Part shown: piece by piece, positions 23,394 through 39,917 of the stretch
Numbering within the stretch: position 1 is the first letter of the stretch
How the letters are laid out: every line of letters starts with the position of its first letter
Assembly: GCF_019263705.2 (NCBI RefSeq)
Contig: NZ_JADQDK010000001.1
Location: 2,232,001 to 2,296,000, forward strand
Source: Pseudonocardia abyssalis
Lineage (GTDB): Bacteria > Actinomycetota > Actinomycetes > Mycobacteriales > Pseudonocardiaceae
Direction: 5' to 3'
DNA: 64,000 nt
Translations under genes and position numbers: made by a program
The notes under the pieces: generated by a model
Seen by the model: only the letters and a program-made list of their open reading frames with translations
Databases searched by the model: none
Told to the model about the DNA's origin: nothing

Positions 23394-23681
23394 GTGGCAG
23401 GTGCAGTGGGATTCGTCGAGACCAAGGGCCTGGTCGGGGCCATCGAGGCGGCCGACGCGATGGTCAAGTCCGCGAACGTCGTGATCGAGGGCTATCGCAC
23501 CATGCGCAACGGCCAGGTCTCCATCGTGGTGCGCGGCGACGTCGGGGCCGTCACGGCGGCGGTCGCCGCGGGCAGGGCCGCCGCGCTGCGGGTGGGCGAG
23601 CTGTACACCAGCCACGTCATCGCTCGCCCGCACGACGAGACCGAGGGCGTGCTCGCTCAGGCGATCACCCCGACCGCGTGA
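23394..23681 (+). CDS. BMC-H shell hexamer protein (PduA/EutM/CcmK type)
   Basis: This 95-aa single-BMC-domain protein begins [20 protein letters not shown] and continues [25 protein letters not shown] and [11 protein letters not shown]. These are hallmarks of hexamer-forming microcompartment shell proteins that tile the facets. It is 95 residues, a normal length. The GTG start follows GGAGGAGG by 6 nt. Unlike the other shell genes it is on the plus strand, on its own, converging with the PucR-type regulator 12 bp away. Its promoter carries the same inverted repeat as the main shell operon. Confidence 0.96.
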
Positions 23682-23693
23682 CCCTCCGGGCCG

Positions 23694-25856
23694 TCAGCCG
23701 GTCTCCTCGGTGGCGGTCCGGTTGATCTGGAGCAGGCGCAGCGCGAAGTCGGCCCGCATGCGGTCCTCGTGGCGGCTCAGGTCGAGGCCGGTGAGCTGAC
23801 GGATCCGCTCGAGGCGGTAGCGCAGGGTCTTGTGGTGGATGAACAGCCGCTCCGCCGCGACGCGCTGCGAGCAGTCGGACTCGAAGAAGACCCGCAGGGA
23901 CCGGACCAGTGCCCCGTCGTTGTCGCGGTCGTAGGCGACGAGGGGCCCGGTCACGTCGTCGATGAAGGTCTGCAGGTCCGGGTCGTCACCGGTGCCGAGC
24001 AGCAGGCGCACGATGCCGAGCTCCTCGTAGAGGAACGCGGTGTGCCCGCCGAGCCGCCGGGCGGCCGACAGCGCGGTGCGGGCCTCGTTCAGGGCGCTGG
24101 GGAGCTCGATGGCGTCGTCGTGCTCGCGGCTGACCCCCCAGGTGACCCGCAGCCCGGGCTGGTCGCGGTGGACCGCGGCCGAGACGGCCGCGACGAGGTC
24201 CTTCGCCGCGGCCGGGTCGATGTCGGCGGCGATCGCGACGAGCAGGTCCCCGCGCAGGCTCGCGAGCGTCAGCCCGCGGCCGTCGTCGAGGGACCGGACC
24301 GTGCGCAGCACGTCGCGACGGACCCGGTCGGTCTGCGAGGTGTCCCAGCCCTCCTGCGCGGCGAGGTCCTCGACGTTGTCGATCTGCCCATGCACGACGC
24401 GCAGGGCGCCGGTCAGGGTGACGCCCAGCTGCTGCGCGCGGGTGCGGGCGGCGACGCGGTGCTCGACCGGCCCCTGCAGGAGGTCCCACAGGACCTGCTC
24501 GATCGCCTCGGACCGGGCCCGGCTCGCCGCGCGCTGGCGCAGCAGGGCCAGCGAGCACGCCATCGCGACCTGCCCGGCGACGGCCTCCATCAGTTCCGAG
24601 GACTGGCGCCCCTGGACCAGCAGCACCCGGCCGACCTGGTCGCCGTCGGCGTAGACGGGCCGGATCCAGTGGGTCGGCTCCCGCGGGACCGCGCGCCGGG
24701 TGGCCGCCGACTCCGGCAGCCGCCCGGGCAGCGATCCGACGACCTGCGACCCGGTGTGCGAGGCGATCATCGCGCCGTCCGGGCCGTAGACGCCGACCTC
24801 ACAGTCGAGCTCGACGGCGACGGTGCGGGCGATCGCGGGTAGCCCGCCGCCCTCGATGACGGTGGTCAGCAGCGTCTGCTGCAGCCGGGAGGAATGGTCA
24901 AGCACGGCGACCTGGTGCTGCAGCGCGTCGCGGGCACGCTCGGTCTCCGCGGTGGACGCGGCCTGCTCGTCGTGCAGCCGCGCGTTGTCGATCGCGATCG
25001 TGGCGAAGTCGGCCAGGGTGACCATCCGGCGGATGTCGTGCTCGGTGAAGATCGACCGGCGCCGCCGCCACACCTCGAGGACGCCGATGAACTCGCCCTG
25101 CAGCCGCAGCGGCACGGCCAGCGCGGACCGCGTCTCCTCGCGCTCGGCCAGCGACATGAAGTCGTGGCTGATCGTCTCGTCGTCGAGGTAGGAGTCGACC
25201 TTCGCCGGCTCACCGGTCAGGAACACCAGCCCCGCGACGCCCTGGCCGCGGTGCATCCGCAGACGCGCGGTCTCCGCGACGCGGTTGCCCACGCACGAGC
25301 GCATCCGGACCACGTCGCCCTCGCGCAGCATCACCCCGCAGATGTCGGCGTCGAGCAGGCCCATGGTGCGTTCGGCCACCGACAGCAGCAGGCGGTCGAC
25401 GTCGCGCACGGACAGCAGCTGGCGGACGACGTCCCGGATGACCCCGGCCTCCGCCCCCGCCGCGTCGATCTCCCGGGTGGTGGTCTGCTGCCGTAGCAGC
25501 AGCGACAGCCACGCGCACGCCTGCCGCAGGAGGCTCGTCCACTCGGGCTCCCACCGGGCCGAGGGGTCCCAGCAGACGGCGACCGATCCGCCGTCGGCGG
25601 CGATCACCCCTTGACGGGACCGGCAGCTCCCGTTCGTCACACCGGTCTGGGGCAGGCCCGCGACACCGGTGCCGGGCCCCGCGAGGGCGGTCCAGCGCTC
25701 CCCCGTCCATGCCGCGACCGTGACGGGCGTGCCGGAGAGCAGCGAGGCGCGTCCGGCGAGGTCACCGGCGGCCTCGCCGACGTCGGCGGGCAGGGTCTGC
25801 AGCAGGTCGGCGAGGCTGTCGCGCTGGGCCCGCAGATCCAGCTCGGACAGGGTCAT
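23694..25856 (-). CDS. GAF-domain PucR/CdaR-type transcriptional regulator
   Basis: This 720-aa regulator has an N-terminal region of unclear fold, a GAF sensor domain near residues ~150-300 (RLLLSVAERTMGLLDADICGV... AVPLRLQGEFIGVLEVW), a central GGDEF-like CdaR segment (~500-600), and a C-terminal PucR helix-turn-helix (ERLFIHHKTLRYRLERI). PucR-type proteins activate catabolic operons upon ligand binding. It is the last gene of the main microcompartment operon, 15 nt after the alcohol dehydrogenase gene, and so is the likely regulator of this locus. The GGACAA-N15-TTGTCC sites are candidate targets (inference). Confidence 0.88.
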   Translation of the reverse strand: MTLSELDLRAQRDSLADLLQTLPADVGEAAGDLAGRASLLSGTPVTVAAWTGERWTALAGPGTGVAGLPQTGVTNGSCRSRQGVIAADGGSVAVCWDPSARWEPEWTSLLRQACAWLSLLLRQQTTTREIDAAGAEAGVIRDVVRQLLSVRDVDRLLLSVAERTMGLLDADICGVMLREGDVVRMRSCVGNRVAETARLRMHRGQGVAGLVFLTGEPAKVDSYLDDETISHDFMSLAEREETRSALAVPLRLQGEFIGVLEVWRRRRSIFTEHDIRRMVTLADFATIAIDNARLHDEQAASTAETERARDALQHQVAVLDHSSRLQQTLLTTVIEGGGLPAIARTVAVELDCEVGVYGPDGAMIASHTGSQVVGSLPGRLPESAATRRAVPREPTHWIRPVYADGDQVGRVLLVQGRQSSELMEAVAGQVAMACSLALLRQRAASRARSEAIEQVLWDLLQGPVEHRVAARTRAQQLGVTLTGALRVVHGQIDNVEDLAAQEGWDTSQTDRVRRDVLRTVRSLDDGRGLTLASLRGDLLVAIAADIDPAAAKDLVAAVSAAVHRDQPGLRVTWGVSREHDDAIELPSALNEARTALSAARRLGGHTAFLYEELGIVRLLLGTGDDPDLQTFIDDVTGPLVAYDRDNDGALVRSLRVFFESDCSQRVAAERLFIHHKTLRYRLERIRQLTGLDLSRHEDRMRADFALRLLQINRTATEETG

Positions 25857-25871
25857 CGGTGCCTCCGCCGC

Positions 25872-26906
25872 TCAGAACGCGATCAGCGACTTGAGCGTAC
25901 GTCGCTGCGCCATGCGCCGATACGCGTCCGGAACGCCGTCGATGTCAACCGTCTCGGACGCGACGACGGTCGGATCGACCGCCCCGGAGCGCACGAGGGC
26001 GAGCAGCGCGTCGCCGTCGCGCATGAGGTCGCCGATGGCGAACCGCAGCGTCAGCTCGTCGGCGAACGCCCTGGCGACCGGCAACGGCCAGGTCGGGTCC
26101 GCGTGCACCCCCACCGAGACGATCGTCCCCCGCCGACGGACGAGCCCGAACGCGGACTCGAGCCCGCGCGGACCGCCGATGGCGTCGATCACCGCGTCGG
26201 CCCCGCGGCCGTCGGTGACCTCGTCCACGAGGGCGCGCGCCCCGTCGGGATCGGTGCCCAGTGCGCCCTCGCCCGCGGCCAGCGCCCGCCGCTGCTCGAC
26301 CGGCTCGCTCACCACCACGACCCCCGCCCCGCAGGCCTGCGCGGCGAGGCTCGTGAGCTGCCCGACCGGTCCGCCGCCCAGTACCGCGACCGTGTCGCCC
26401 GGACGCAGGCCGCAGCGCTGCACGGCCGCGTAGCCGGTGGCGAGGGTGTCGCCCAGGAACACCGCGGCGTCCAGCGCGACGTCGTCGGGCACCGCACACA
26501 GGACGGTGTCGGCGAACGGGACCCGCACCAGCTCGGCCTGGGACCCGGCCAGCGCCGGACCGAACGCGGCTCCGGTGCCGAAGAACCGGCGCTGCCCGCA
26601 CTCCCAGTGGTCACCGCGGCGGCACCACCAGCAGGTGCCGCAGGCGGTGAAGTCGGCCCCGACCACCCGGTCGCCGACGCGGTGGCCCACCACCGCGGGC
26701 CCGACCTCGACGACCTCCCCGGCGAACTCGTGCCCGAGGACCGTGCCCCGCGGCACGTGCTCGGCGTGGGAGACGATGTGCAGGTCGGTGCCGCAGACCG
26801 CGGCGCGGCGGACCCGCACGACGGCGTCGGTGGGGTCGGCGACCGCGGCGTCGGTGACCGACTCCACGCTCACCCGGCCGTCGCCGCCGAACACGACCGC
26901 CCTCAT
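25872..26906 (-). CDS. Zinc-dependent alcohol dehydrogenase (MDR family)
   Basis: This 344-aa medium-chain dehydrogenase has the catalytic zinc site from CGTDLH (~38-43) and LGHEFAG (~57-63), a structural zinc site as C-x2-C-x2-C-x7-C (CGTCWWCRRGDHWECG), and the NAD-binding VAVLGGGPVGQL. It probably interconverts the aldehyde of this pathway with its alcohol, either feeding the pathway or recycling NAD+ inside the microcompartment. Its ATG overlaps the stop of the malate-dehydrogenase-like gene (ATGA, 26903-26906). No obvious encapsulation peptide is seen. Confidence 0.88.
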   Translation of the reverse strand: MRAVVFGGDGRVSVESVTDAAVADPTDAVVRVRRAAVCGTDLHIVSHAEHVPRGTVLGHEFAGEVVEVGPAVVGHRVGDRVVGADFTACGTCWWCRRGDHWECGQRRFFGTGAAFGPALAGSQAELVRVPFADTVLCAVPDDVALDAAVFLGDTLATGYAAVQRCGLRPGDTVAVLGGGPVGQLTSLAAQACGAGVVVVSEPVEQRRALAAGEGALGTDPDGARALVDEVTDGRGADAVIDAIGGPRGLESAFGLVRRRGTIVSVGVHADPTWPLPVARAFADELTLRFAIGDLMRDGDALLALVRSGAVDPTVVASETVDIDGVPDAYRRMAQRRTLKSLIAF

Positions 26907-28276
26907 CCCGGGACCGCCAGTGCTCCGACGCGCTCGCGGATCCGGTCGGCGGCGGCGCGCAGCGCGGCGAGCTCGTCGGGGCGCAGGTCCAGCTCGACGA
27001 TCTCGCGGACCCCGCCGCGTCCCAGGCGCACCGGCAGGCCGACGTAGACGTCGCGGATGCCGTAGCTGCCGTCGGCCAGCACCGCGGCGGGCATGACCTC
27101 GCCGCTGTCGGCGGCCATGGCCAGCACCATCCGCGCCGCCGACGTCCCCGGCGCCAGGAACGCACTGCCCGTCCTCAGCAGCCCTACGACCTCGGCCCCC
27201 GACCCGCGGGCCCGGTCGACGACGGCGTCGACCTCCGGGCCCAGCGGCCGTCCGTCGGCGCTGGCCTGCGACAGCGGGATGACCATCTCCTCGCCGTGGC
27301 TGCCGAGCGCCCAGCCCTCGATCCGGTCGGCGCGGGTGGTGCCGCCCAGGGAGGCCAGTGCCCGGAAGCGCGCGGTGTCGAGCACCCCGGCCATGCCGAG
27401 CACGCGCTCCGGGGGGAAGCCCGACGCCCGCCAGGCGTGCTGGGTCATCTCGTCGAGCGGGTTGGTGACCACGACGACCACCGCACGCGGCGAGGTGTCC
27501 GCGACCCGTGCGGCGACGTCGCCGACGATCGCGGCGTTCGAACTGATCAGGTCCGACCGGCTCATCCCCGGCTGCCGGGCCTTCCCCGCGGTGATGACCA
27601 CGTAGTCGGCGGCCCCCGCCGCCTCGACCGTGCCGGCCCCGCGCACGCGCGTGGCGAACCCGCTCAGCGCCGCGGTGTGCGTGAGGTCCAGCGCGATGCC
27701 CGCGGCGCGGCCCTCGTCGACGTCGACCAGTACGACCTCGTCGAACACGTCGGCGTCGGCCAGGCGCATCCCGATGATCGTCCCGACGTTCCCCGCGCCG
27801 ACGACGACGACCCGTCCACCGGCGCGGTGCCCCGGGCCGCCGGGCCGGCCGGGCCCGGTGCCGGCGGGGCGGACCTCGGGCGGCAGCGGTGCGCCACGGC
27901 GGTACAGCGCGCCCGACGGCGGGCGGACGGGCGGCGGGGCCACCTCGGCGCGGTGCCCCACCGCGGCCCGGCTCGCTGCGGCACCGGCGGGCGACGGCAT
28001 GGGCCGCCCCGCAGCCGGGGGCCGCACCGCGGCGGAGGTGGCGGACGACGGGGTCCCGGGCGACCCGGCGCCGCGACCCGGCTGCGGCACCGACGACGAC
28101 GGATACCTGCGGTCCCCCGCCACCGCGGCGGCGGTGCCCGGGGTGGCGAGGACGATCTCGACGCCCAGCTCCCGGGCCCGCTCGCGGGCCAGCGGGGTCA
28201 CGATGTCGCGGGCCCCGACCGCCAGGATGCCGCGCCGCGCCGCCTCGTCGACGTCGGAGGCGCCGAAGACCGTCAC
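26903..28276 (-). CDS. Malate/lactate dehydrogenase-fold protein with N-terminal BMC-cargo-like module
   Basis: A 457-aa fusion. Residues 1-46 form a short module (SDVDEAARRG, DIVTPLARERAREL) like the N-terminal segments on other microcompartment enzymes. Residues ~47-154 are a Pro/Ala/Gly-rich linker. From 155 on there is a complete MDH/LDH domain: GAGNVG (160-165), NAD-specifying D186, substrate Arg234 and Arg240 in KARQPGMSR, D300/R303 and catalytic His327 in GSHGEE. The two-arginine loop favours malate/oxaloacetate over lactate. It probably recycles NADH made by the acylating aldehyde dehydrogenase. The GTG start overlaps the BMC-T stop (GTGA). The targeting role is inferred. Confidence 0.85.
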   Translation of the reverse strand: MTVFGASDVDEAARRGILAVGARDIVTPLARERARELGVEIVLATPGTAAAVAGDRRYPSSSVPQPGRGAGSPGTPSSATSAAVRPPAAGRPMPSPAGAAASRAAVGHRAEVAPPPVRPPSGALYRRGAPLPPEVRPAGTGPGRPGGPGHRAGGRVVVVGAGNVGTIIGMRLADADVFDEVVLVDVDEGRAAGIALDLTHTAALSGFATRVRGAGTVEAAGAADYVVITAGKARQPGMSRSDLISSNAAIVGDVAARVADTSPRAVVVVVTNPLDEMTQHAWRASGFPPERVLGMAGVLDTARFRALASLGGTTRADRIEGWALGSHGEEMVIPLSQASADGRPLGPEVDAVVDRARGSGAEVVGLLRTGSAFLAPGTSAARMVLAMAADSGEVMPAAVLADGSYGIRDVYVGLPVRLGRGGVREIVELDLRPDELAALRAAADRIRERVGALAVPG

Positions 28277-28914
28277 TTCTTGTCCTCCCGGCCGTGCATC
28301 CCCTCCAGCGCGGCGACGGCGGCGTCGCGGGCGGTCTGCACCTCGCTCTCCGTACCGGAGAGGAACATGCGCCCGAACCGGCCGACGGCGCGCAGCTCGA
28401 TCACCGTGATGTTGGCGGCCTTCTCGGCCTCGTTGGCCGCGACGGCGATGTAGGCGGCCGGGGCCACCTCCATCACGAACAGGCTCTGGCCCGGCATCAT
28501 CATCGAACCCTTGCGCCACTTGTTGAGCAGCTGCGCCTGGTAGGCGTGGACGTTCGTGATGAACTGGGTCGAGTGGATCACCGGCTTGATCCGGTCGGCC
28601 TCGGTGAGGCCCATCTCGTCGAGCACGGCCTGGCCGGACGCGAGCACCTCGGCCTGCTGCTCGGAGTGGATCTCCAACAGGCCGAACTCGCGCTCGATGA
28701 TCTGCAGCGCCGGGCGCACACCCGCGGCCTTGAGGGCGATGTCGGCGGCCCGGAACACCTCGTTGCCGGGGGCCATCTCGATGTAGAGCTCCGCCATCCC
28801 GGCCAGCGGGACGTCGCCGGGGCTGGTCGCCGCGATGTGCGCCGCGCACTGCGGCTGCATGCGGTCGACGAAGGCGTAGGTGCGCAGGGTGGGGGTCGGG
28901 CGGGGGCTGCTCAT
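28273..28914 (-). CDS. BMC-T tandem-domain shell protein
   Basis: This 213-aa protein has two tandem BMC domains that assemble as a pseudohexameric trimer. The first contains IEMAPGNEVFRAADIALKA and FGLLEIHSE; the second contains GQSLFVMEVAPAAYIAVAAN, EAEKAANI and GRFGRMFLSG. The order of motifs closely resembles the mycobacterial RMM shell protein MSM0275, which forms stacked trimers with a gated pore. Such trimers are thought to pass larger molecules such as cofactors. ATG 28914 overlaps the EutJ-like gene's stop, and the gene's own stop overlaps the next GTG. Confidence 0.93.
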   Translation of the reverse strand: MSSPRPTPTLRTYAFVDRMQPQCAAHIAATSPGDVPLAGMAELYIEMAPGNEVFRAADIALKAAGVRPALQIIEREFGLLEIHSEQQAEVLASGQAVLDEMGLTEADRIKPVIHSTQFITNVHAYQAQLLNKWRKGSMMMPGQSLFVMEVAPAAYIAVAANEAEKAANITVIELRAVGRFGRMFLSGTESEVQTARDAAVAALEGMHGREDKK

Positions 28915-29723
28915 GCCGCGGACCTCGCGATGCCGATCGGGGTGATGAGCAGGGCGTGCGGATAGGACACGACGGTGCGCTCCAGGTACTCGGCCAGCAC
29001 GTCTCCCGCGCCGGTGATCATCAGGGCCCCACCCGCGAGGTGCAGCGGCAGCTCCTCGGCGTCGCGGGTCATGGCCCGCACCGACTCGGCGATGCGCTGC
29101 AGCCCGGGGACGAGGACGGGCAGTGACTCCCGCTGGTGTGCGCGCTTGTGCACCTCGGCGTCCTCGACGGACAGCCCGAGGGCCCCCGCCAGCACCAGGT
29201 CGAGGTGGTGTCCGCCGCCCGCGCGGTCGTCGAGGGCGTCGAGCCGCCCGCTGCGGAACACCCCGACGCCGGTCGAGCCGCCACCGACGTCGACGACGAC
29301 ACCGTCGACGACCTTCAGTGTCCGCTGCGCCGCGGTGACCTCGTCGACGAGCACGACGTCGGTGAAGCCGGCCGACTCGCACACGTAGGTGCACGCGCGC
29401 GCGTCCTTCACGGGGATGCACGGCGGGTACGCGGTGGCCACCGACGTGAGTACGACGCCGAGTGCCTCCTCCGCCCGGTTCCTCAGCAGCCGCACCGTGG
29501 CGGTCGCCCGTGCGACGTCGACGACCACCCCGTCGCGCAGGGCCGCGGAGGGGTGGCTGTCGACCCAGACCGGCCGGTCGTCGGCGTCCAGCACGACCAG
29601 CACACAGCTGGCCGTGCCCAGGTCGACGCCCACCCGAAGCGGACCGGCCGGGGGCCCGTCCGGGGTCGCGCCGACCATCCCGGACGCCGTCTCGAGCAGC
29701 TGCCGCGGGTCTTCCCCGCTCAC
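28911..29723 (-). CDS. EutJ-like actin/Hsp70-fold ATPase
   Basis: This 270-aa protein has the nucleotide-binding motifs of the EutJ/DnaK-like superfamily: VGVDLGTASCVLVVLD (phosphate-1), VVDVGGGSTGVGVF (phosphate-2) and ALMITGAGDVL (adenosine). EutJ homologues are common in microcompartment loci and are assumed to be chaperones or reactivases for encapsulated enzymes; the precise role is not known. The GTG start overlaps the aldehyde dehydrogenase stop (GTGA, 29720-29723). There is no B12 or glycyl-radical enzyme here to reactivate, so its client must be something else. Confidence 0.85.
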   Translation of the reverse strand: MSGEDPRQLLETASGMVGATPDGPPAGPLRVGVDLGTASCVLVVLDADDRPVWVDSHPSAALRDGVVVDVARATATVRLLRNRAEEALGVVLTSVATAYPPCIPVKDARACTYVCESAGFTDVVLVDEVTAAQRTLKVVDGVVVDVGGGSTGVGVFRSGRLDALDDRAGGGHHLDLVLAGALGLSVEDAEVHKRAHQRESLPVLVPGLQRIAESVRAMTRDAEELPLHLAGGALMITGAGDVLAEYLERTVVSYPHALLITPIGIARSAA

Positions 29724-31108
29724 AGCTCCACCGGGTCGTACACGGTCCGCCACGGCCGCACCTCGTGGGCGATGCGCTTGATGTTGATCAGGTGCAGCGG
29801 GGTGACGTTGTCGGAGCAGATCGAGCCGCTCCAGGTGCCGGTGCCGAGCTGGAAGGACGGGTCGACGTCGGTCGAGTACCCCATCCCGCCGAACAGCGCC
29901 GGGGTGTTGATCACGATGCGACCGGCGGGGAGTGTCCCGAACGGGGCGATCTCCGCGGGATCGGCCGCGTGCACCGCGCAGGTGTGCCCCTCGCCGTCGA
30001 GGGCGAGGATCTCCCGGCACCGCGTCCAGCCCTGCGCGGCGTCGCGGACCCGGTAGACCGACAGCACCGGCCCGAGGATCTCCCGCGACAGCGGGGTGTC
30101 GACGCCCACCGAGTCCAGCTCGGCGGCCAGCACCCGGGTGGTCGTGGGCACCGCGAAGCCGGCGAGCTCGGCCAGCTTCACCGCGGTCTGGCCGACCGCG
30201 GCCGGTCGCAGCGCGCCGCGGTCGTCGAACAGCACCCGGATCAGGCGCTCCTGCTGGGGCGCGTTGAGCCAGAACGCGCCGCGCTCGGCGAACGCGGTGA
30301 GGAACGCCGCTGCGACCGCCTCGGCGACGACGACCGACTGCTCCGCGACGCACGCCGTGCCGTTGTCGAACGACTTCGAGGTGATGATCATTTCGGCGGC
30401 CTCGGCCGCGTCCGGGACGCTGACGCCGACGTAGGCCGGGACGTTGCCCGCGCCGACGGCGATCGTCGGCTTGCCGCTGGAGTACGCGGCCCGCACCATC
30501 CCGGGCCCGCCGGTCGCCAGCACCAGCGCGATCTCCGGGCGGCGCATGAGCTCCTGCGTGGCCGGGAGCGTCGGGTTCTCGATGCACGAGATCAGGCCCT
30601 CAGGGGCGCCGGCGGCGACCGCGGCCTCGGCCATGATCTCCGCCGTCCGCAGTGTGCACCTCGCGGCGCGCGGGTGCGGCGCGTGCACGATCGCGTTGCC
30701 CGACTTCACCGCCGCGAGGCTCTTGAACAGCGTGGTGGACGTCGGGTTGGTGACCGGGATGATCCCCGCGATCACGCCCATCGGGGTGCCGACGGCCGTG
30801 ACGCGGGACTGCTCGTCGACCCACAGCACACCGACGGCCCGCCGCTCCAGCATCCACTTCGCGACGAAGCCGGTGTTGTAGCGGTTCTTGTAGATCTTGT
30901 GCTCGTACAGGCCGTAACCGGTCTCGTCGACGGCGAGGCGTGCGAGCTCCTCGGCGGCCTTCGTGCCGGCCAGCGCCATCGCGCGGACGATGTGGTCCAG
31001 GGTCGCCTGGTCGGCGCCCTCGAGCTCGTCGAACGCCCGACGGGCCGCGCGGGCCTTCGCCCGCACGTCGGCCAGACCGGTCAGGTCGGCATCCAGGGAT
31101 GCGGTCAT
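29720..31108 (-). CDS. CoA-acylating aldehyde dehydrogenase (EutE/PduP/AdhE-N type)
   Basis: A 462-aa aldehyde dehydrogenase of the acylating group. The catalytic Cys253 lies in SFDNGTACVAEQS. VGTPMGVIAGIIPVTNPTST, SGNAIVHAPHP and GVGAGNVPAYV-like nucleotide/CoA segments precede it. The C-terminus GGMGYSTDVDPSFQLG with GSICSDNVTP is typical of AdhE/EutE-like enzymes. It converts an aldehyde plus CoA and NAD+ to acyl-CoA and NADH, the core reaction of metabolosomes. The N-terminal ~25 residues (LTGLADVRAKARAARRAF) could form an amphipathic targeting helix. It is third in the main shell operon. Confidence 0.93.
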   Translation of the reverse strand: MTASLDADLTGLADVRAKARAARRAFDELEGADQATLDHIVRAMALAGTKAAEELARLAVDETGYGLYEHKIYKNRYNTGFVAKWMLERRAVGVLWVDEQSRVTAVGTPMGVIAGIIPVTNPTSTTLFKSLAAVKSGNAIVHAPHPRAARCTLRTAEIMAEAAVAAGAPEGLISCIENPTLPATQELMRRPEIALVLATGGPGMVRAAYSSGKPTIAVGAGNVPAYVGVSVPDAAEAAEMIITSKSFDNGTACVAEQSVVVAEAVAAAFLTAFAERGAFWLNAPQQERLIRVLFDDRGALRPAAVGQTAVKLAELAGFAVPTTTRVLAAELDSVGVDTPLSREILGPVLSVYRVRDAAQGWTRCREILALDGEGHTCAVHAADPAEIAPFGTLPAGRIVINTPALFGGMGYSTDVDPSFQLGTGTWSGSICSDNVTPLHLINIKRIAHEVRPWRTVYDPVEL

Positions 31109-31170: not shown

Positions 31171-31494
31171 TCAGGCCTTCGGGCGCGTGAGGATCGCGAG
31201 GATGCCCTCGGTCTCGTCGTGCGGGCGCGGGATCACGTGGACGGAGACGACCTCGCCGGCCTTCGCCGCCGCGACGGCGCCCGCGTCGGTCGCGGCCTTC
31301 ACCGCGCCGACGTCGCCGCGCACCATCACCGTGACGAGACCGCCACCGATCTCGCGGTGCCCGACGATCTGCACGTTGGCCGACTTCACCATCGCGTCGG
31401 CCGCCTCGATCGCGCCGACCAGGCCCTTCGTCTCGATCAGCCCGAGCGCTCCGCGCATCGCGGGAGCTCCGGTGCCACCGGTCGGTGTCGCCAT
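31171..31494 (-). CDS. BMC-H shell hexamer protein (second copy)
   Basis: This is a 107-aa single-BMC protein. The core [20 protein letters not shown] and [20 protein letters not shown] is nearly the same as in the plus-strand BMC-H, and the tail [17 protein letters not shown] also matches. A 13-residue Gly/Thr-rich N-terminal extension ([12 protein letters not shown]) precedes the domain; the ATG may instead be the internal one at the end of this extension. Second gene of the main shell operon, after the vertex protein. Confidence 0.96.
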
Positions 31495-32049: not shown

Positions 32050-33048
32050 GTGATCCGTCCCGAGGACGCGCAGTTCCATGCCCCGACCAGCGACGACCCG
32101 CTGTGGGCCGAGACCAACTACTTCGGCCTCTACGCGGGCCAGGACACCGACACCCCGATGAACATCGGCGTGTACGGCCTGTTCCGCGAGCCGATCGGGG
32201 TCGTCGGATCGACGGTGTCGGTCAACAGCCGCCGCGTGACGATGCCGTGGGCGGCCGACTACTGGGACGCCTGGGAGCACCTCGTGGTCCCGCAGCCGTC
32301 GAACCTGCTCGACTACCGGCTGGCCAACGGGCTGAAGGTGGTCTGCAGCGAGCCCAACAAGGTCTGGGACGTCGACTACTCCGACCCCGACGCCGATCTC
32401 GAGCTGCACTTCCGCTTCACCGGACTGTCGGTCCCCTACGACGTCAACGACCCCGAGCAGGACCCGATGGCCGCCGACAAGGACATGGACCTCACCTGGG
32501 GCCACGCCTACGCCGGTCACTTCGACCTCACCGGGCACGTCGAGGGCGAGATCCGCCTGCGCGGTGCCACCACCCCGATCGACTGCGTGTCCACCATGGA
32601 CCACAGCTGGGGTGTGCGGGCCGAGCGCCAGACATCGCGCCTGAGCTGGCTGCACGCGCACTTCTCGACGGACTTCGCGGTGCACGCGCTGTTCGACTTC
32701 GGAACCGGGGCCGGGCCGGACGGGGCGTCGCCCCTGACGATGACCCACGGCTACGTGCTCGACCACGGCGAGCTGCACGGGCTCAAGGCCGGTGGCGGCA
32801 CGACCCACCGCGCGGGCTTCTACCCCGACGCCATCGAGGTCTCGGTCACCGACTCCTCCGACCGCACCTGGGACCTGGAGGGCACCGCGCTCACCACCTT
32901 CCCGTGGCAGGCGTGGCCCGGCACCGTCGGGCACAACGCGCTGCTGCGCTGGACGTGCGGCGGGCAGACCGGCTACGGCGAGTGCATGGACTTCATCGGG
33001 CTCGGCGAGCTGGGCGCGGCGTACCACCGGGTCCACGGCACGGGGTGA
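32050..33048 (+). CDS. Uncharacterised lipocalin/CrtC-like protein (DUF7064/DUF7065-like)
   Basis: This 332-aa protein is rich in beta strands and aromatic residues. Features include DDPLWAETNYFGLYAG at the start, WDAWEHLVVP, a central VSTMDHSWGVR and the C-terminal GQTGYGECMDFIG. The pattern resembles the hydroxyneurosporene-synthase/AttH-like calycin fold now split as DUF7065 and DUF7064; I recall this only by pattern. Such proteins are common beside actinobacterial lipid and steroid catabolic genes and may bind or hydrate a hydrophobic substrate. GTG 32050 has GAGGAGGG upstream. It is the first of three plus-strand genes inserted between the two minus-strand operons of the BMC locus. Confidence 0.6.
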   Translation: MIRPEDAQFHAPTSDDPLWAETNYFGLYAGQDTDTPMNIGVYGLFREPIGVVGSTVSVNSRRVTMPWAADYWDAWEHLVVPQPSNLLDYRLANGLKVVCSEPNKVWDVDYSDPDADLELHFRFTGLSVPYDVNDPEQDPMAADKDMDLTWGHAYAGHFDLTGHVEGEIRLRGATTPIDCVSTMDHSWGVRAERQTSRLSWLHAHFSTDFAVHALFDFGTGAGPDGASPLTMTHGYVLDHGELHGLKAGGGTTHRAGFYPDAIEVSVTDSSDRTWDLEGTALTTFPWQAWPGTVGHNALLRWTCGGQTGYGECMDFIGLGELGAAYHRVHGTG

Positions 33049-33052
33049 CCCG

Positions 33053-34072
33053 GTGAGCGCCCCGCTCCCCCCGGTGCGCGCGGTGATCTTCGACCTGGAC
33101 GGCACGCTGGTCCAGACCCGGATCGCCTCGTGGGAGATCTTCGAGCGGATCAGCAAGCGGTTCGAGCTGGGCATCGACCGGCCCGAGCAGTACTTCGACC
33201 TGTTCCGCGGCAACGTCTTCGAGTCGATCCGCACGCTGTGCCGCGACGACGAGCACGCCGCGCAGGCGAAGGCGGCGTTCCTGGAACTGCTGCGGGAGGA
33301 GTACACGCCGCCGCTGGTCCCCGGGGTCACCGACGTCGTGCGCCGGCTCGCGGGCGAGTGCACGCTCGCGGTGATGTCGTCGAACGCCATGCAGGTGCTG
33401 CGGCGCGTGCTGGTGGCCAACGACCTCGCGTTCTGCTTCGCGCACGTGTTCGGCGGCGACGTGGCGCCCGACAAGCGGGCCGCGATCGGGGCGTTCCTCG
33501 CCGACTCCGGCAGCGGCTTCGGCCGCCGCTGCGCGGCCGACTACGACGAGGGCGGTCGGCGGCTCGACCCCGGCCCGTCCAGCACGGTGCTGGTCACCGA
33601 CACCGCGGGCGACGTCCGCGACGCACTGGCCGCCGGTATCCGCGTGGTCGGCGTCGCCTGGGGCATGCACTCGGTGGAGGAGCTGACGGCGGCGGGCGCG
33701 GAGTTCGTGGCGCTGTGGCCGCAGGAGATCGCGGCGCACCTGCTGGGCGACGCCGCGTCGCGGCCGGCGGAGGGGGCGTGCGCGGTTCCCGCGGGGCCCC
33801 CGGCGGTGGCGACACGATCAGCGGCGGCGGCACCGGCGGTGGCGGGCGGCGACGGGACGGCGGCCGCGCAGGTCCGGGCCGCGGCTGCGGTCCGCCGGGC
33901 CCGCCGGACCGGTGCGTCGTCGGCGGCGTCCGACTCCCCGGCCGGTCACTCCCCGGCCGCCGCTCCGTCGGCCGCGTCCCGACCGGATTCGGCCCGACCC
34001 GGGCGGATGTCCGCGCCGGCCGCGTCCGAGGAGCTCCTCGACGCGGTGCGACGGGTGTGCCGACGTGGCTGA
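33053..34072 (+). CDS. HAD-family phosphatase with C-terminal encapsulation-peptide-like helix
   Basis: This 339-aa protein's first ~230 residues are a Gph-like HAD hydrolase: FDLDGT with Asp14/Asp16, VMSSN motif II, a Lys in PDKRAAIG and VTDTAGDVRDAL. They are followed by a ~90-residue Ala/Pro/Ser-rich linker and a final short helix (SEELLDAVRRVCRRG), amphipathic when drawn on a wheel. A catalytic domain, flexible linker and short terminal helix is the classic layout of microcompartment cargo. So a phosphomonoester is probably hydrolysed inside the shell. GTG 33053 is 4 nt after the upstream stop; the stop overlaps the next gene's GTG. Confidence 0.82.
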   Translation: MSAPLPPVRAVIFDLDGTLVQTRIASWEIFERISKRFELGIDRPEQYFDLFRGNVFESIRTLCRDDEHAAQAKAAFLELLREEYTPPLVPGVTDVVRRLAGECTLAVMSSNAMQVLRRVLVANDLAFCFAHVFGGDVAPDKRAAIGAFLADSGSGFGRRCAADYDEGGRRLDPGPSSTVLVTDTAGDVRDALAAGIRVVGVAWGMHSVEELTAAGAEFVALWPQEIAAHLLGDAASRPAEGACAVPAGPPAVATRSAAAAPAVAGGDGTAAAQVRAAAAVRRARRTGASSAASDSPAGHSPAAAPSAASRPDSARPGRMSAPAASEELLDAVRRVCRRG

Positions 34073-34793
34073 GGAACGGGCCAGGGCCATCGAGGGCGCG
34101 TTCAACTTCCGCGACCTCGGCGGCCTGCGGACCCAGGACGGCCGGGCGATCCGGCGGGGCGCCCTGTTCCGCAGCGACACCCTCCAGGCGCTGAGCCCCG
34201 CAGACGTCTCCTACCTCGTCGACGAGCTGGGCCTGGAGCTGATCGTCGACCTGCGGATCGGTCCCGAGGCCGTCACGGAGGGTCGGGGACCGCTCGCGGC
34301 GACGCCCGTGAGCTACCTCAACGCCCCGCTGCGCGACCTCCCCGTTTCCGACCTGCCCCCGGCCGAGCAGAGCCTGCAATTCTCCCTCGAGCACCTCGGG
34401 TCGCCGGCGTCGCCGCTGGCCACGGTGGTGCGGGTCGTGAGCGCGCTCGCCGGACGCCCGGTGCTGGTGCACTGCGCCGCGGGCAAGGACCGGACCGGGC
34501 TCGTCACCGCGATGCTGCTGCGGCTCCTGGGCGTCGACGACGAGGAGATCGTCGCCGACTACCTCCGCACCGGGGAGAACATGGCGCGCGTGATCGAGCG
34601 GTTCCGCGGCTGGCCCCGCTACCGCGACCACATGGCGGCGGTCCCCGCCGAGGTCTACCAGGCCCACGAGCACACGATCCGCGGCTTCCTCGACGGCCTC
34701 GACCGGCTCCACGGCGGGGCGCAGGGGTGGTCGCGCTCACGCGGCATCGACGACGGGGTCCTGGACCGCCTGCGCGCGGGCCTGCTGGCCTGA
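34065..34793 (+). CDS. Tyrosine-protein phosphatase-like protein (Y_phosphatase3 family)
   Basis: This 242-aa protein has the family's N-terminal GAFNFRDLGGL, a RGALFRSDTL segment, and the P-loop VHCAAGKDRTGL (~residues 134-145) with catalytic Cys and Arg. The GKDRTG loop is that of the lipid/tyrosine dual phosphatases such as mycobacterial PtpB. In this context it might dephosphorylate a small phosphoester made by the neighbouring phosphotransferase operon, or a phosphoprotein. It overlaps the HAD gene by 8 nt, so both phosphatases are co-translated. Confidence 0.85.
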   Translation: MAEERARAIEGAFNFRDLGGLRTQDGRAIRRGALFRSDTLQALSPADVSYLVDELGLELIVDLRIGPEAVTEGRGPLAATPVSYLNAPLRDLPVSDLPPAEQSLQFSLEHLGSPASPLATVVRVVSALAGRPVLVHCAAGKDRTGLVTAMLLRLLGVDDEEIVADYLRTGENMARVIERFRGWPRYRDHMAAVPAEVYQAHEHTIRGFLDGLDRLHGGAQGWSRSRGIDDGVLDRLRAGLLA

Positions 34794-34832: not shown

Positions 34833-34853
34833 GGTCGTCCTCCGTACGTGGGT

Positions 34854-37319
34854 TCAGACCCCCAGCGCCGCCCGGCCCAGAGCCAGTACGAGCGGGCGAG
34901 TCTCCGCGGCGTCGACCGCGAAGCGCCGGAACCCCAGCCCGAGCAGCTGCCCGGCGGCCTCCTGGGAGACCTCGCCGGACAGGCGCAGCCCGACCCGGCA
35001 CCCCGGCACCGCCGCCGCCGCGTCGGCGACGTGCGCGAGCAGCGTCTGCACCGACGGGTCGACGGTGGTGCGCGGGTCACACGACAGCATTCCCCGGGCC
35101 AGGTACCCGTCGAGCGGTTCGGCCGTGAGCAGCTGCCGGGCGGGCAGCCCGAACATCGCGGCCTGGACCGCCCGGACCTCCAGCCACACGACGTCGCCCG
35201 CCTCGGCGATGGCACCCGCACCGAGTGCTCCACGCGGGCTGGTCAGGTAGGCGCCGACGCCGATCCCCGTGCCCTCGCCGAGTGCGCGCAGCGCCCGGGC
35301 CTCCGCCGGGTCGGACAGGTGGCGTACCGCGAGGTGCACCGTCGCCCGCCCGCCGGAGTCCGCCAGGGCCCTGGCCAGCCCGGAGAGCTGCGCCTCGATC
35401 AGGGCCGGGCGGCCCAGCGGCACCGACAGCTCCGGGTGCCGGGTCGTCACGGCGGTCTGCTGCAGCAGCTCGCGGGCCTCGTCGGCGACGAGGTCGATCG
35501 CCCGCACGCCCACCTCCCCGTCGCCCGCCGCCTCCAGGATCGGGGTGAACTCCTGCGCGACGAGGTCGGCGATGCGGTCGATGCCGTCGCCGTCGCCCAG
35601 CAGGCTCGCGACGAGACCGTCGAGGTGCCCGGTGGCCGCGAGCACGTCGTCGACGGCGGTGACCAGGCCGGCCGCCCCGGCGTCGCGCGCCGCGGCGACG
35701 TCGGCGGGCAGCGTGACGCGGCTCAGCACCGCGCACCCGCTCGCCCCGGCCGCGAGGCCGAGGAGCTCACCGAGCGCGGCGGTGGCCGCGGCCGGGGTGG
35801 AGGTCGTGAAGCCACCGGCGAACAGCTCACCGGAGGCCCCGTCGAGCGAGACCTCGTCCCCCTCGGCCAGGGTGCGGTCGCCGACGCGCACCGTGCGGGC
35901 GGACTCGTCCACGACGATCTCCGACGCCCCGACCACGCAGGTGGTGCCGAGCGCCCGCGCGACGACGGCGGCGTGGCTGGTGGAGCCGCCGGTGGCGGTG
36001 ACGATGCCCTGCGCCGCGATCATCCCGTGCAGGTCGGCGGGGCTGGTGACCGGCCGCGCGAGGATGACCGGCCTCCCGGCGTCGGCTTGCTCCTTGGCCC
36101 GGTCCGAGTCGAGGACGAGCGCACCGCTGACCTGGCCGGGGCAGGCCCCGATCCCGGTGGTGAGCAGCCGGTCCCCCGCCCGGGCGCGCTCGACCTCGGC
36201 GTCGTCGAAGCCCGGGCGCTGCACCTGCCGGATCTGCGCGGGCGTGACGTGGCGCAGCGCCTGCTCCAGGGGCAGGCCCTCGGACGCGAGGTCGGCGGCG
36301 ATCCGCACGGCGGCCTCCGCGGTGCGCTTGGCGCTGCGGACCTGCAGGAAGTACAGCGCCGACCGCTCGACGGTGAACTCGATGTCGAGCACGTCGCCGT
36401 GGTTGCGCTCGAGGTCGTCGCAGGTGGTGCGCAGCTCGTCGAGCACGTCGGGGGCGAGCGCCTCGGTGACCGGATCGGGCGTGCGGGTGCCGGCGACGAC
36501 GTCCTCGCCCTGGCTGTGCGCGAGGTACTCACCGAACAGTCCCGGCTCCCCGGTCACCGGGTTGCGGGTGAACACGACCCCGGACCCGGAGTCGGCCGAG
36601 AGGTTGCCGAACACCATCGACTGCACGACGACGGCGGTGCCGAGGTCGTGCGGGATGCCGTGGTGGTCGCGGTAGGTGCGGGCGCGGCGGGTGTTCCAGG
36701 AGCGGAAGACCGCCTCGATCGCGCCGACGAGCTGCGCGCGCGGGTCGTCGGGGACGGAGTCGCCCGTGTCGTCGGCGAGCGCCTGCTCGCACGCGGCCCA
36801 GACCCGGTCGTAGACCGGACCCGCGTCCTCGCCCGGGTCGACCGCCTCGACGAGTGCGTCGATCCCGGCACCGGGGTCGAGCGCGTCCAGCACCGTCTCG
36901 GCGTACATCGCGTGGAAGCGGGCGACGAGGTCGGCGACGAACCGTGCGTCGCCCGTCGCCTCGGCGAGGGCGACCGCGGCGCCCCGGTCCAGGCCGAGGT
37001 TGAGGATGGTGTCCATCATCCCCGGCATCGAGACCGGCGCGCCCGAGCGCACGGAGAGCAGCAGCGGGACCGGCCCGCCCCCGAACGCCTTGCCCGTGGC
37101 CGCCTCGAGCTCGGTGAGCCGGGCGAAGACCTCGTCGACCAGCCCGCCCGGCACCGCCTTCTCCGCCAGGTAGCTGCGGCAGGCGTCGGTGCCGATCACG
37201 TACCCGGGCGGCACCCGCAGGCCCTGCTGCGTCATCCGCGCCAGCCCGGCGCCCTTGCCGCCGAGCCGGTCGACGTCGGCGGGATCGGCCTCGGTGAAGG
37301 TCAGCGTCAGACCGGTCAT
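34854..37319 (-). CDS. PPDK/PEP-synthase-like phosphotransferase with degenerate PEP/pyruvate barrel
   Basis: 821 aa. Residues 1-~340 are a complete PPDK ATP-grasp (LGGKGAGLARM, SVRSGAPVSMPGMMD, SGVVFTRNPVTGE, EFTVERSALYFLQVR). Residues ~385-480 are the swivel domain with phospho-acceptor His449 in TGGSTSHAAVVAR. Residues ~490-821 align with the PEP/pyruvate barrel but have lost its signatures: the GLxRTEHM loop reads GLVTAVDDV, the metal-binding MIE and FGTNDLTQ positions read YLTSP and WLEVRAVQ, and the CGEHGG catalytic Cys loop reads RLSGEV. It may therefore phosphorylate itself from ATP but not make PEP. ATG 37319 overlaps the 204-aa gene's stop. Confidence 0.85.
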   Translation of the reverse strand: MTGLTLTFTEADPADVDRLGGKGAGLARMTQQGLRVPPGYVIGTDACRSYLAEKAVPGGLVDEVFARLTELEAATGKAFGGGPVPLLLSVRSGAPVSMPGMMDTILNLGLDRGAAVALAEATGDARFVADLVARFHAMYAETVLDALDPGAGIDALVEAVDPGEDAGPVYDRVWAACEQALADDTGDSVPDDPRAQLVGAIEAVFRSWNTRRARTYRDHHGIPHDLGTAVVVQSMVFGNLSADSGSGVVFTRNPVTGEPGLFGEYLAHSQGEDVVAGTRTPDPVTEALAPDVLDELRTTCDDLERNHGDVLDIEFTVERSALYFLQVRSAKRTAEAAVRIAADLASEGLPLEQALRHVTPAQIRQVQRPGFDDAEVERARAGDRLLTTGIGACPGQVSGALVLDSDRAKEQADAGRPVILARPVTSPADLHGMIAAQGIVTATGGSTSHAAVVARALGTTCVVGASEIVVDESARTVRVGDRTLAEGDEVSLDGASGELFAGGFTTSTPAAATAALGELLGLAAGASGCAVLSRVTLPADVAAARDAGAAGLVTAVDDVLAATGHLDGLVASLLGDGDGIDRIADLVAQEFTPILEAAGDGEVGVRAIDLVADEARELLQQTAVTTRHPELSVPLGRPALIEAQLSGLARALADSGGRATVHLAVRHLSDPAEARALRALGEGTGIGVGAYLTSPRGALGAGAIAEAGDVVWLEVRAVQAAMFGLPARQLLTAEPLDGYLARGMLSCDPRTTVDPSVQTLLAHVADAAAAVPGCRVGLRLSGEVSQEAAGQLLGLGFRRFAVDAAETRPLVLALGRAALGV

Positions 37320-37930: not shown

Positions 37931-37949
37931 GGGTATCCCTCCACGGGAC

Positions 37950-37981: not shown

Positions 37982-38017
37982 GATGATCGGCTGGGGTGGG
38001 AGGTGGGACCTACTCCG

Positions 38018-39451
38018 CTACAGCCAGCGGCCCTTCGAGTTGCGCAGGTCGGCGTTGTCGGAGAAGGGCAGGTAGCCCGCTCCGGAGAAGATCTTGCTGG
38101 GCACCGTCTCCTGCGCGAAGCCGCGCTTGGTGATGTCGTAGTAGTAGTTGGAGACGCGCTGGTCGATCTCCCACAGGTCGTAGTCGCGGCAGGCCTTCTC
38201 GTACGTGCCGGCCTTGCGCAGGTGCGGGAGGATCATGTCGATGTAGTAGACGTACTGCCCGTTCCAGATCAGGTCGCGGCGGCACATCTTCGACGTCTTC
38301 GTGTAGAGCTTCAGCGTCGCGGTCCGGACGCGTTCCAGGTGCTCACCGAGGTCGTCGATCTTGATCGGGTAGACCTCGCCCATCGGGGTGTTCCACTTCT
38401 CGCGGGCGAACACCGCCCCGCCCACGATGGCCTCGATGTAGTTCTTCGGCCGCGTGAACGTGGTCGAGATGTCGTTGACCCGGATCTCGTTGAGGCCCAT
38501 CCGGTTCGGGTCGATCACCAGCGCGAGCGTGTAGCAGTGCGGGAGCTTCGCGTCCTCGCAGACGTCGCTCCAGTGGAAGACCTCCTCGTTCACGAACAGG
38601 TCGCGCAGGATGAGGATGTTCCCGTCCGGCAGCTCGTAGGGCCCGGTGTCGCCCAGGCCCAGCCGGCAGTCGTAGTGGTCGAGGAACGACAGCAGCTCCG
38701 CGGCCGCGTTGAACTGCGTGAACGCGCTGTGCTTCGGGCTGCCGTGCTCGATCGGCTCGACCTGGGCCACCAGCTGGTCGAGGAAGTCCTGCTCGTGGAT
38801 CTGGCAGCGGTAGCGGTCCTGCGAGTTGAGCAGGTAGCCGTCCTGGCGCTTGCCCCACAGCACGCGCTGCATGAACTTGAGGATCTCGTTGGACTCGGGG
38901 ATGTAGTCGTCGGCGCCGATCGTCTCCAGCGCGAGCAGGCCGCAGCGCCCCATGCCGAACCCGACCGCGCCGATGGCCCAGTCGTGCACGGAGTTGACCT
39001 TGGTGCCGATCTCCCGGCGGGCGCTGGCCCCGATGTCCATGACGCCCTGGGCCCCGCCGACCTCCGCGGTGGTCATGCGCAGGATCTCCGGCCACCGGTA
39101 GAACTCGTGCATGAAGGCCAGGATCTCGTACTCCTGGCGCGGGATCATGCCCGACTCGCCCTCGGTGGCCCGCATGACGAGCACGTCCCAGATGTTCCAG
39201 GCGAGGTAGTTGTTGAGGTCGTTCAGCTCGTCGATCGAGAACTGGTCCTTGAGGACGTCGTCCTTGGAGACCTTCTCCAGCACCCCGCTCTTCGCGCGGG
39301 CCTTCATCATCTTGTCGCCCTTGATCCCGTCGGTGACGGGTTCCATGCCGACGAAGTTGCCGGTGTAGGTGAGGTCCTGGAAGCGGAGGCCGTCGTCGCC
39401 GGCCTCGTACCGCTGCTTGTAGGTGGCGCGCTTGCCCTCGGTCGTCGTCAC
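38018..39451 (-). CDS. Uncharacterised 477-aa protein of the phosphotransfer operon
   Basis: I do not recognise the family. The protein is soluble, with no signal peptide or membrane segment, and unusually rich in Tyr, Asp, Asn and Lys for this genome. Distinct stretches are GMEPVTDGIKGDKMMKAR, AEVGGAQGVMDIGASARR, GFGMGRCGLLALETIGADDY, DRYRCQIHEQDFLDQL, PYELPDGNILILRDLFVNEE, LPHCYTLALVIDPNRMGLNE and TRPKNYIEAIVGGAVF. It lies between the free swivel-domain gene and the ATP-grasp enzyme, so it is the best candidate for the substrate-binding subunit that accepts the phosphoryl group; this is inference from position. The start is a GTG at 39451 with AGGAG 9 nt upstream. Confidence 0.8.
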   Translation of the reverse strand: MTTTEGKRATYKQRYEAGDDGLRFQDLTYTGNFVGMEPVTDGIKGDKMMKARAKSGVLEKVSKDDVLKDQFSIDELNDLNNYLAWNIWDVLVMRATEGESGMIPRQEYEILAFMHEFYRWPEILRMTTAEVGGAQGVMDIGASARREIGTKVNSVHDWAIGAVGFGMGRCGLLALETIGADDYIPESNEILKFMQRVLWGKRQDGYLLNSQDRYRCQIHEQDFLDQLVAQVEPIEHGSPKHSAFTQFNAAAELLSFLDHYDCRLGLGDTGPYELPDGNILILRDLFVNEEVFHWSDVCEDAKLPHCYTLALVIDPNRMGLNEIRVNDISTTFTRPKNYIEAIVGGAVFAREKWNTPMGEVYPIKIDDLGEHLERVRTATLKLYTKTSKMCRRDLIWNGQYVYYIDMILPHLRKAGTYEKACRDYDLWEIDQRVSNYYYDITKRGFAQETVPSKIFSGAGYLPFSDNADLRNSKGRWL

Positions 39452-39497
39452 TGCTGTGTGCTCCTGTCCGGTCGGCGGGGAGGTCGGTGGTCGGGGC

Positions 39498-39917
39498 TCA
39501 GTCGTCGGCCACGATGCGGCCGACCTCGTCGTCGGTGCAGTCGAGCCGGACCTTCTTGCCGTCGAGCTCCCGCGCGATCTCCGCGAAGTGCTCGTCGCTG
39601 GTGGCGCCCACGACGTAACGGGAGTCGCTACCGGTCAGGTGGGCCGTCATCACGCACGGCGTCTGGAACTCGCGCGAGAGGATCCCCAAGTGCGACTCGG
39701 GCGCACCCGACATCGTGATCACGCCGATCGCGCCCATGCTCAGCGCCGGCGCCAGGAAGGTGGTGGTCCCGCCGCGGACCAGGAGGATGTGCTCCTGGAG
39801 CTTGCCGGACTGGATGAGGCTGATGACGTCGGCGGGCGAGGACAGGTACTTCACCGTCCCGCTGGGGGACTTGGACGTGTCGAAGACGTTGTAGCCCTCG
39901 GCCAGAACGTCGGCCAT
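39498..39917 (-). CDS. Stand-alone PEP-utilising-enzyme mobile (phospho-histidine swivel) domain
   Basis: This 139-aa protein is a complete swivel domain. GTVKYLSSPADVISLIQSG leads into HILLVRGGTTTFLAPALS and MGAIGVITMSGAPESHL, with GILSREFQTPCVM after it. His76 corresponds to the phospho-accepting His of PEP synthase, PPDK and rifampin phosphotransferase, though the usual GGxxSH is GAPESH. As a separate subunit it could relay phosphate from His449 of the PPDK-like protein to the substrate site. It is first in its operon; ATG 39917 has a strong AAGGAGG site. Split PEP-synthase-like systems are known, for example phenylphosphate synthase. Confidence 0.85.
   Translation of the reverse strand: MADVLAEGYNVFDTSKSPSGTVKYLSSPADVISLIQSGKLQEHILLVRGGTTTFLAPALSMGAIGVITMSGAPESHLGILSREFQTPCVMTAHLTGSDSRYVVGATSDEHFAEIARELDGKKVRLDCTDDEVGRIVADD

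Follow-up and report, generated by a model that had tools for sequence, protein, structure and literature searches.

A split dikinase and a DUF7064 protein as candidate signature module of a MIC1-like microcompartment locus in Pseudonocardia abyssalis

Where does a metabolosome obtain its aldehyde when none of the known aldehyde-forming enzymes is encoded next to its shell genes? This question is raised by a bacterial microcompartment (BMC) locus of Pseudonocardia abyssalis at positions 23394-39917 of the window, a stretch of 64,000 nucleotides (contig NZ_JADQDK010000001.1, positions 2,232,001 to 2,296,000; G+C 73.7%) from a host genome of 6.3 Mb. A preliminary description of this DNA had listed two BMC-H genes, one BMC-T and one BMC-P gene together with an EutJ-like ATPase, an acylating aldehyde dehydrogenase, an alcohol dehydrogenase and an enzyme of the malate dehydrogenase fold, and all of them were found where it had placed them. 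The split operon related to pyruvate phosphate dikinase (PPDK) and the two flanking phosphatases (HAD and PTP-type) were recovered as well. Among the locus genes scanned, no match was obtained for a B12 lyase or dehydratase, a glycyl-radical enzyme, an aldolase, an aminotransferase or an APH-type kinase, as had been stated before.

The locus is a single heritable block of 16 genes. In gene content it agrees with the published type MIC1, the metabolosome with incomplete core 1 of Axen et al. 2014 (PMC4207490), to which it was assigned by matching features. The shell type is already known; the addition made here is a candidate signature module, consisting of the split dikinase and of a DUF7064 protein whose gene falls within this range and is absent from the preliminary description. 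Several metabolosome types are listed without an aldehyde-making enzyme, namely MIC1 in the main text of PMC4207490 and, in the excerpted text of the 2021 catalogue (PMC8217296), MIC2-7 and others. A conserved dikinase-lyase module tied to the shell is a concrete and cheaply testable signature candidate for a type of the MIC1 kind. The block is read here as a MIC1-kind metabolosome with ATP-dependent dehydration as signature chemistry, a proposal that could go either way.

Conservation of the dikinase module

The aldehyde dehydrogenase was used to scan named genome contigs, which gave 20 loci. An Arthrobacter fragment (38% identity over 69 residues) was dropped and the 19 close relatives were kept. 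They come from 18 genomes of Pseudonocardia, Actinomycetospora, Amycolatopsis and one Bradyrhizobium, with Pseudonocardia endophytica counted twice; in strain DSM 44969 of this species, the block occurs twice along a single contig (L005 and L009). Identity of the aldehyde dehydrogenase was 83-95% across these loci and 68% for Bradyrhizobium. The split PPDK-like operon lay within 10 kb of the aldehyde dehydrogenase locus in 17 of the 19. For one of the remaining two (L022), the gene of o38018, a dikinase component described below, sits elsewhere in that genome, on a different contig, while the other (L013) is a contig of 9.8 kb and no o38018 was found in its 3.5 Mb genome. Some further genes are missing because the contig or the 10 kb flank ends first: the PucR regulator is missing from L007 and L013, which both stop at a contig end, and the flank of L010 stops just short of the swivel gene.

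In Bradyrhizobium Ec3.3, the genes for DUF7064, HAD, swivel, o38018, o37316 and PPDK-like proteins follow each other in the same orientation, pointing away from the shell operon. Since synteny of the block extends to other genera and to this Bradyrhizobium, its conservation is far beyond chance. In the comparison with Bradyrhizobium, identity is even higher for o38018 (76%) than for the aldehyde dehydrogenase. Gene clustering across the 19 loci gave no additional family in three or more of them, except for frames antisense to block genes.

The distribution of o38018 was followed through wider samples. It matched in 14 of 200 genomes of the family (own genome included), in nine of them with at least 77% identity and in five at lower identity only. 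The H/H/T shell set was present in all nine. PF00936 occurred in 15 of the 200 genomes and therefore in six beyond these nine, five of which had only two weaker BMC-H genes and were taken for a putative ARO type. The sixth genome (G431) carries BMC-P, BMC-H, BMC-T, an aldehyde dehydrogenase (51%) and a malate dehydrogenase-like gene with no dikinase within the 20 kb examined, and its locus is of a different type from the block in the window. This locus (L070, contig 9, 7700-15372), with a BMC-T of 55% identity, adjoins glutamine synthetase and FAD-dependent oxidoreductase genes (Pfam).

o38018 was found in six of 396 genomes of the phylum sample at E 1e-5 (own genome and five distant matches), in four of 394 of the class sample at E 1e-60 (own, G665 and two distant ones) and in four of 249 of the order sample at E 1e-60 (own, G462, G999 and G1009). 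G665, from another family, has three copies with 70-75% identity. One stands in a block with swivel, HAD, DUF7064, BMC-P, BMC-H, aldehyde dehydrogenase, EutJ, BMC-T, malate dehydrogenase, alcohol dehydrogenase and PucR genes; one adjoins a BMC-H gene; the third lies by DUF7064 and PucR genes with no shell gene within the stretch examined. The block also occurs in G999 and G1009 from a further family, where the stretch of G1009 ends at the malate dehydrogenase gene.

The PPDK-like protein carries PF01326 and PF00391. It matched the PPDK model TIGR01828 over residues 7-553 with 551 bits (cut-off 843, not reached), compared to 100 bits for PEP_synth, and a profile of four orthologs aligned with solved PPDK over nearly the full length (660 bits). 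The ATP-grasp part is kept, H449 is invariant in the four orthologs and the His-loop motif GG..SHAAVV.R was read by script in 17 of the 19 loci. In the C-terminal barrel, three Mg2+ and pyruvate site residues of PPDK (Glu of MIEIPRAA, Asn of GTNDLTQ, Cys of GICGEH) are replaced in all four aligned orthologs and Asp of GTND in three of them. As ATP-grasp and His loop are kept and the pyruvate-site residues replaced, the protein probably forms phospho-histidine but not phosphoenolpyruvate (PEP).

Judged by its sequence, the stand-alone swivel protein is the second His domain of the module. In L061, L062 and L075, a swivel-type domain is fused to an o38018-like domain and the two therefore belong together. 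For o38018 itself, sequence searches found nothing in Pfam or NCBIfam and nothing meaningful in the PDB. It has 463 database relatives, of which the best 120 are unnamed, hypothetical or uncharacterised. Its predicted model is confident (predicted local distance difference test score 91) but had no PDB match at E 0.001 with Foldseek. From domain homology and retained motifs, it is proposed that the PPDK-like protein, the swivel protein and o38018 form a split dikinase. o37316 is probably accessory to it; relatives of this protein occur in dikinase operons without BMC genes.

In a tree of 45 o38018 sequences, 25 with at least 65% identity fell on one side of a branch with support of 100/99; the label of close relative was set by identity and not by neighbourhood, L090 and L098 had no shell gene in the stretch examined and L099 duplicates the gene of L019. 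Relatives with 23-41% identity stand in dikinase operons without shell genes. Their neighbours include biotin carboxylase, carboxyltransferase and AMP-binding genes (L061, L071), a P450 gene (L064) and an APH gene (L067, L063). L061, L062 and L075 have tandem sets of two or three o38018 paralogues and no shell genes; together with L071, they resemble pathways for the carboxylation of ketones or phenols. In L014, o38018 is in two pieces. On the same contig (G573 contig 4, 65878-68596; L037, L043), the pieces lie about 1.3 kb apart and one contains a TGA, apparently an interrupted copy in an otherwise present locus.

A possible route to the aldehyde

The predicted model of the DUF7064 protein has a CrtC/AttH fold. 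Its best Foldseek match was 25-phosphosteroid lyase, with 17% identity over the aligned residues. The fold is shared with AttH and with kievitone hydratase, whose Z scores were lower than that of the lyase by 0.5 and 2.9 units. The profile search gave no PDB chain up to E 10 and thus no sequence-profile match to the lyase. Elsewhere, DUF7064 genes adjoin or are fused to small-molecule kinases in 20 of 29 loci (14 of them in one genus), compared to two of 175 in the control. Fold and gene pairing together suggest that DUF7064 is a phosphoester (C-O) lyase, and the pairing suggests a function for an actinobacterial family without known role. At least 11 of the 29 loci (L108-L110, L112, L113, L116, L117, L120, L125, L127, L128), from the same class and mostly from one genus, have an EcKL/APH-type kinase and DUF7065/7064 in one open frame. 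Such a fusion may be a single-chain ATP-dependent dehydratase, and the Rv3168-Rv3169 operon is maybe its split form.

The following route would connect the module with the shell (positions in Table 1). The split dikinase would move a phosphoryl group of ATP onto histidine and pass it to the hydroxyl group of a small alcohol held by o38018. On chemical grounds, this alcohol is most likely a vicinal diol. The DUF7064 protein would then expel the phosphate, so that the diol is converted to an enol and further to the aldehyde, which the acylating aldehyde dehydrogenase would oxidise to acyl-coenzyme A (acyl-CoA) inside the shell. NAD+ would be recycled by the Zn-alcohol dehydrogenase and the malate dehydrogenase-fold enzyme, possibly by malate/oxaloacetate exchange. 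Because no PduL-type phosphotransacylase is present, acyl-CoA or CoA is proposed to pass the shell, perhaps through the CcmP-like BMC-T. The two phosphatases may remove phosphate from wrongly phosphorylated substrate, by analogy with 25-hydroxysteroid kinase, which also phosphorylates a wrong, primary hydroxyl group according to the excerpted text of PMC8449060. The preliminary description had proposed phosphorylation of a substrate, its conversion to an aldehyde and capture as acyl-CoA. This outline gains support from the operon conserved in 17 of 19 loci, with an 18th on another contig, and from the lyase-like fold of DUF7064 as candidate second step, while the reactions themselves, the substrate and the content of the shell are inferred.

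Other explanations were weighed against ATP-dependent dehydration. The dikinase could phosphorylate a phenolic or other aromatic compound like HpeHI, CreHI and PpsAB, with the phosphate as a transient handle that is taken off by the two phosphatases. DUF7064 would in that case hydrate the compound or act on its ring, and side-chain cleavage would release the aldehyde. The split architecture resembles that of the phenol dikinases, the Hpe product is later carboxylated and dephosphorylated in the pathway as excerpted from PMC12167813, and the related operons L061 and L071 contain biotin carboxylase, carboxyltransferase and AMP-binding ligase genes. Such a role is nevertheless rather unlikely: enzymes for ring cleavage, carboxylation or C-C cleavage are not conserved in the block, the ATP subunit resembles PPDK and not PEP synthase, and no chain of the rifampin phosphotransferase type was among the Foldseek and VIA matches listed for o38018.

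PPDK homologues natively phosphorylate an enolate. This would suit a dikinase that activates a carbonyl or enol of an unsaturated or ketone-derived substrate, with DUF7064 as hydratase (like kievitone hydratase) or isomerase on an alkene or enol, and the fold is indeed common to AttH and kievitone hydratase with the Z differences given above. The fusion or adjacency of DUF7064 and kinases is more simply explained by action on a phosphoester, and this reading is considered unlikely. It is quite improbable that the dikinase only makes an ordinary metabolite such as PEP from pyruvate for anaplerosis or energy balance, in which case the Zn-alcohol dehydrogenase would form the aldehyde by oxidising a primary alcohol, much like the ethanol-utilising type. 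Homology to PPDK over the full length is consistent with it, as is the presence of an alcohol dehydrogenase and an EutE/AdhE-type aldehyde dehydrogenase, but the presumed pyruvate/Mg2+ residues are replaced in the four aligned orthologs, two extra proteins and DUF7064 are left without a role, and the acceptor protein is better kept than the aldehyde dehydrogenase.

ATP-dependent dehydration is retained as the preferred reading. In its boldest form, which is put forward tentatively and has the chances somewhat against it, a four-part, PPDK-descended dikinase and a CrtC-fold lyase would yield the aldehyde of the shell as an oxygen-tolerant, B12-free and radical-free diol dehydratase. If true, ATP-driven dehydration would join the known microcompartment routes to an aldehyde, and kinases with DUF7065/7064, including the single-chain EcKL-DUF7064 fusions, would represent a general ATP-dependent dehydration system of Actinobacteria.

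Gene content and layout

Gene starts were chosen from frame composition, overlaps and start codons; the swivel gene begins at ATG 39917, preceded by a ribosome-binding-like site. A run on the minus strand from 31829 to 23694 comprises the genes for BMC-P, BMC-H1, aldehyde dehydrogenase, EutJ/MreB-like protein, BMC-T, malate dehydrogenase-fold enzyme, Zn-alcohol dehydrogenase and PucR regulator, several of them with 4-base overlaps. BMC-H2 is convergent on this run. The genes for DUF7064, HAD and Y_phosphatase3 are divergent from it, and the dikinase operon (34854-39917, minus strand, in the order swivel, o38018, o37316, PPDK-like) is convergent.

Table 1. Genes of the block with their positions in the window and their occurrence in the 19 related loci
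Gene product	Position	Strand	Evidence	Loci
BMC-H shell protein 2	23394..23681	+	PF00936, 92 bits	15/19 (separate copy)
GAF + PucR-type transcriptional regulator	23694..25856	-	PF01590, PF13556	17/19
Zn-dependent alcohol dehydrogenase	25872..26906	-	PF08240/PF00107	18/19
Malate dehydrogenase-fold enzyme	26903..28276	-	PF00056/PF02866, starting at residue 155	17/19
BMC-T, CcmP-like tandem-domain shell protein	28273..28914	-		19/19
EutJ/MreB-like ATPase	28911..29723	-	PF06723 (MreB_Mbl), 33.7 bits	19/19
Acylating aldehyde dehydrogenase, EutE/AdhE-N type	29720..31108	-	TIGR02518, 476 bits (cut-off 620, not reached); 5j78, 381 bits	19/19
BMC-H shell protein 1	31171..31494	-	PF00936, 98 bits	19/19
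BMC-P vertex protein	31536..31829	-	PF03319, 79 bits	19/19
DUF7065/DUF7064 protein, proposed phosphoester (C-O) lyase	32050..33048	+	CrtC/AttH fold (predicted)	19/19
HAD-family phosphatase	33053..34072	+	PF13419, 51 bits; FDLDGT motif	18/19
Y_phosphatase3 phosphatase, PTP-like	34065..34793	+	PF13350, 177 bits; HCAAGKDRTG	13/19
PPDK-derived ATP-grasp + phospho-His protein (proposed dikinase ATP subunit)	34854..37319	-	C-terminal barrel without catalytic residues	17/19
o37316, 204 residues	37316..37930	-	Weak MarR-like N-terminus	17/19
o38018, 477 residues, without known family; proposed acceptor-substrate dikinase subunit	38018..39451	-		17/19
Stand-alone swivel domain	39498..39917	-	PF00391, 32 bits; conserved His (SGAPESHLGI)	16/19

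The catalytic Cys of the aldehyde dehydrogenase lies in GTACVAEQ and the Cys motif was found in all 19 loci. Type I aldehyde dehydrogenases carry an encapsulation peptide in a C-terminal tail (excerpted text of PMC8217296). Such a tail seems to be missing here because the alignment with TIGR02518 reaches only to position 449 of 488. The nearest solved structures of the Zn-alcohol dehydrogenase were 4cpd (227 bits) and 5yln, followed by threonine and secondary-alcohol dehydrogenases.

The closest solved chains of the malate dehydrogenase-fold enzyme were malate dehydrogenases. Its loop TAG..R.PGM, found in 16 of 19 loci, contains an Arg that presumably marks the malate-type position. An N-terminal extension of about 150 residues consists of the motif ARDIVTPLARERARELGVEI and a linker. 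The motif is present in the window, was found by pattern reading in six of the 19 loci and is presumably of a kind that occurs in other BMC proteins; the Bradyrhizobium enzyme (L019) also has a fused extension. A relative of Y_phosphatase3 (48%) stands beside the non-BMC dikinase operon L071.

A tRNA-Ala that ARAGORN placed at 30208-30298 (minus strand), within the coding sequence of the aldehyde dehydrogenase, is probably spurious. Upstream of the block, the region 13212-23260 encodes an indolepyruvate ferredoxin oxidoreductase, the large subunit of a molybdenum-dependent dehydrogenase, a mycofactocin-type short-chain dehydrogenase/reductase and a candidate mycothione reductase-like frame; these neighbours were not found in the related loci.

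Comparison with known systems

The locus shares with MIC1, as described in the main text of PMC4207490, the aldehyde dehydrogenase, a protein of the lactate/malate dehydrogenase Pfam family (Ldh), a Zn-dehydrogenase, a hydrolase (HAD in the locus), a phosphatase (Y_phosphatase3) and an MreB-like protein (MreB_Mbl), as well as the lack of a phosphotransacylase and of a named signature enzyme. Both have a single CcmP homologue (excerpted text of PMC5853799). A further dehydrogenase beside the aldehyde dehydrogenase and two alcohol dehydrogenases, on which the wording of PMC4207490 is ambiguous, was not seen in the block, and a word search of that main text gave neither a dikinase nor PF01326. 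It assigns no substrate and no signature enzyme to MIC1, and the view of a locus with neither thus stands after the match to a described type.

Two earlier statements did not hold. The metabolosome core had been called complete; it is not, to judge from the gene content, because PduL-type phosphotransacylase (PF06130) was found in none of 11 locus-carrying genomes in a search that gave control matches in E. coli and T. maritima and did not extend genome-wide to other phosphotransacylase families. The BMC-T had been likened to the mycobacterial RMM type. This was rejected, as CcmP (216 bits) and HO-5816 (202 bits) outscored the RMM proteins MSM0275 (164.5 bits) and MSM0271 (137 bits). By these scores, the protein is CcmP-like and not RMM-like, with 250 bits on the NCBIfam CcmP model, below the cut-off of 340.

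With RMM, the locus has in common an actinobacterial host, the CcmP/CsoS1D-like class of BMC-T and the lack of a phosphotransacylase (excerpted text of PMC5853799). It differs in the closer relation of its BMC-T to CcmP and HO-5816 and in the RMM catalytic genes, whose absence had been noted before: aminotransferase, small-molecule phosphotransferase and permease, which define RMM in the main text of PMC4207490, were not among the locus genes scanned. For both MIC1 and RMM, it has been suggested that a CcmP-like pore lets cofactors pass in a gated manner (excerpted text of PMC5853799). PDU, EUT and GRM loci are similar in shell classes, acylating aldehyde dehydrogenase, alcohol dehydrogenase and, in some, an EutJ-like protein. 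Their aldehyde is formed by a B12 or glycyl-radical enzyme, however, and a phosphotransacylase is part of the metabolosome paradigm, whereas no such signature enzyme was among the locus genes scanned and the PduL type is absent as well.

The proposed module itself can be compared with two systems. HpeHI, CreHI and PpsAB, in the excerpted text of PMC12167813, also have ATP-grasp and swivel-His parts on separate polypeptides and belong to catabolic operons. In contrast to the PEP-synthase-like ATP-grasp of the HpeHI type, the ATP part of the locus resembles PPDK; it has a His domain of its own, and its barrel lacks the catalytic residues. The swivel and the acceptor of the locus are two distinct polypeptides. 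The 25-hydroxysteroid kinase and 25-phosphosteroid lyase (excerpted text of PMC8449060 and PMC7411048) differ by a single-protein kinase with sequential mechanism instead of a dikinase, a tertiary steroid alcohol as substrate and no microcompartment; what they would share with the locus is the order of events, with phosphorylation by a kinase followed by elimination of the phosphate.

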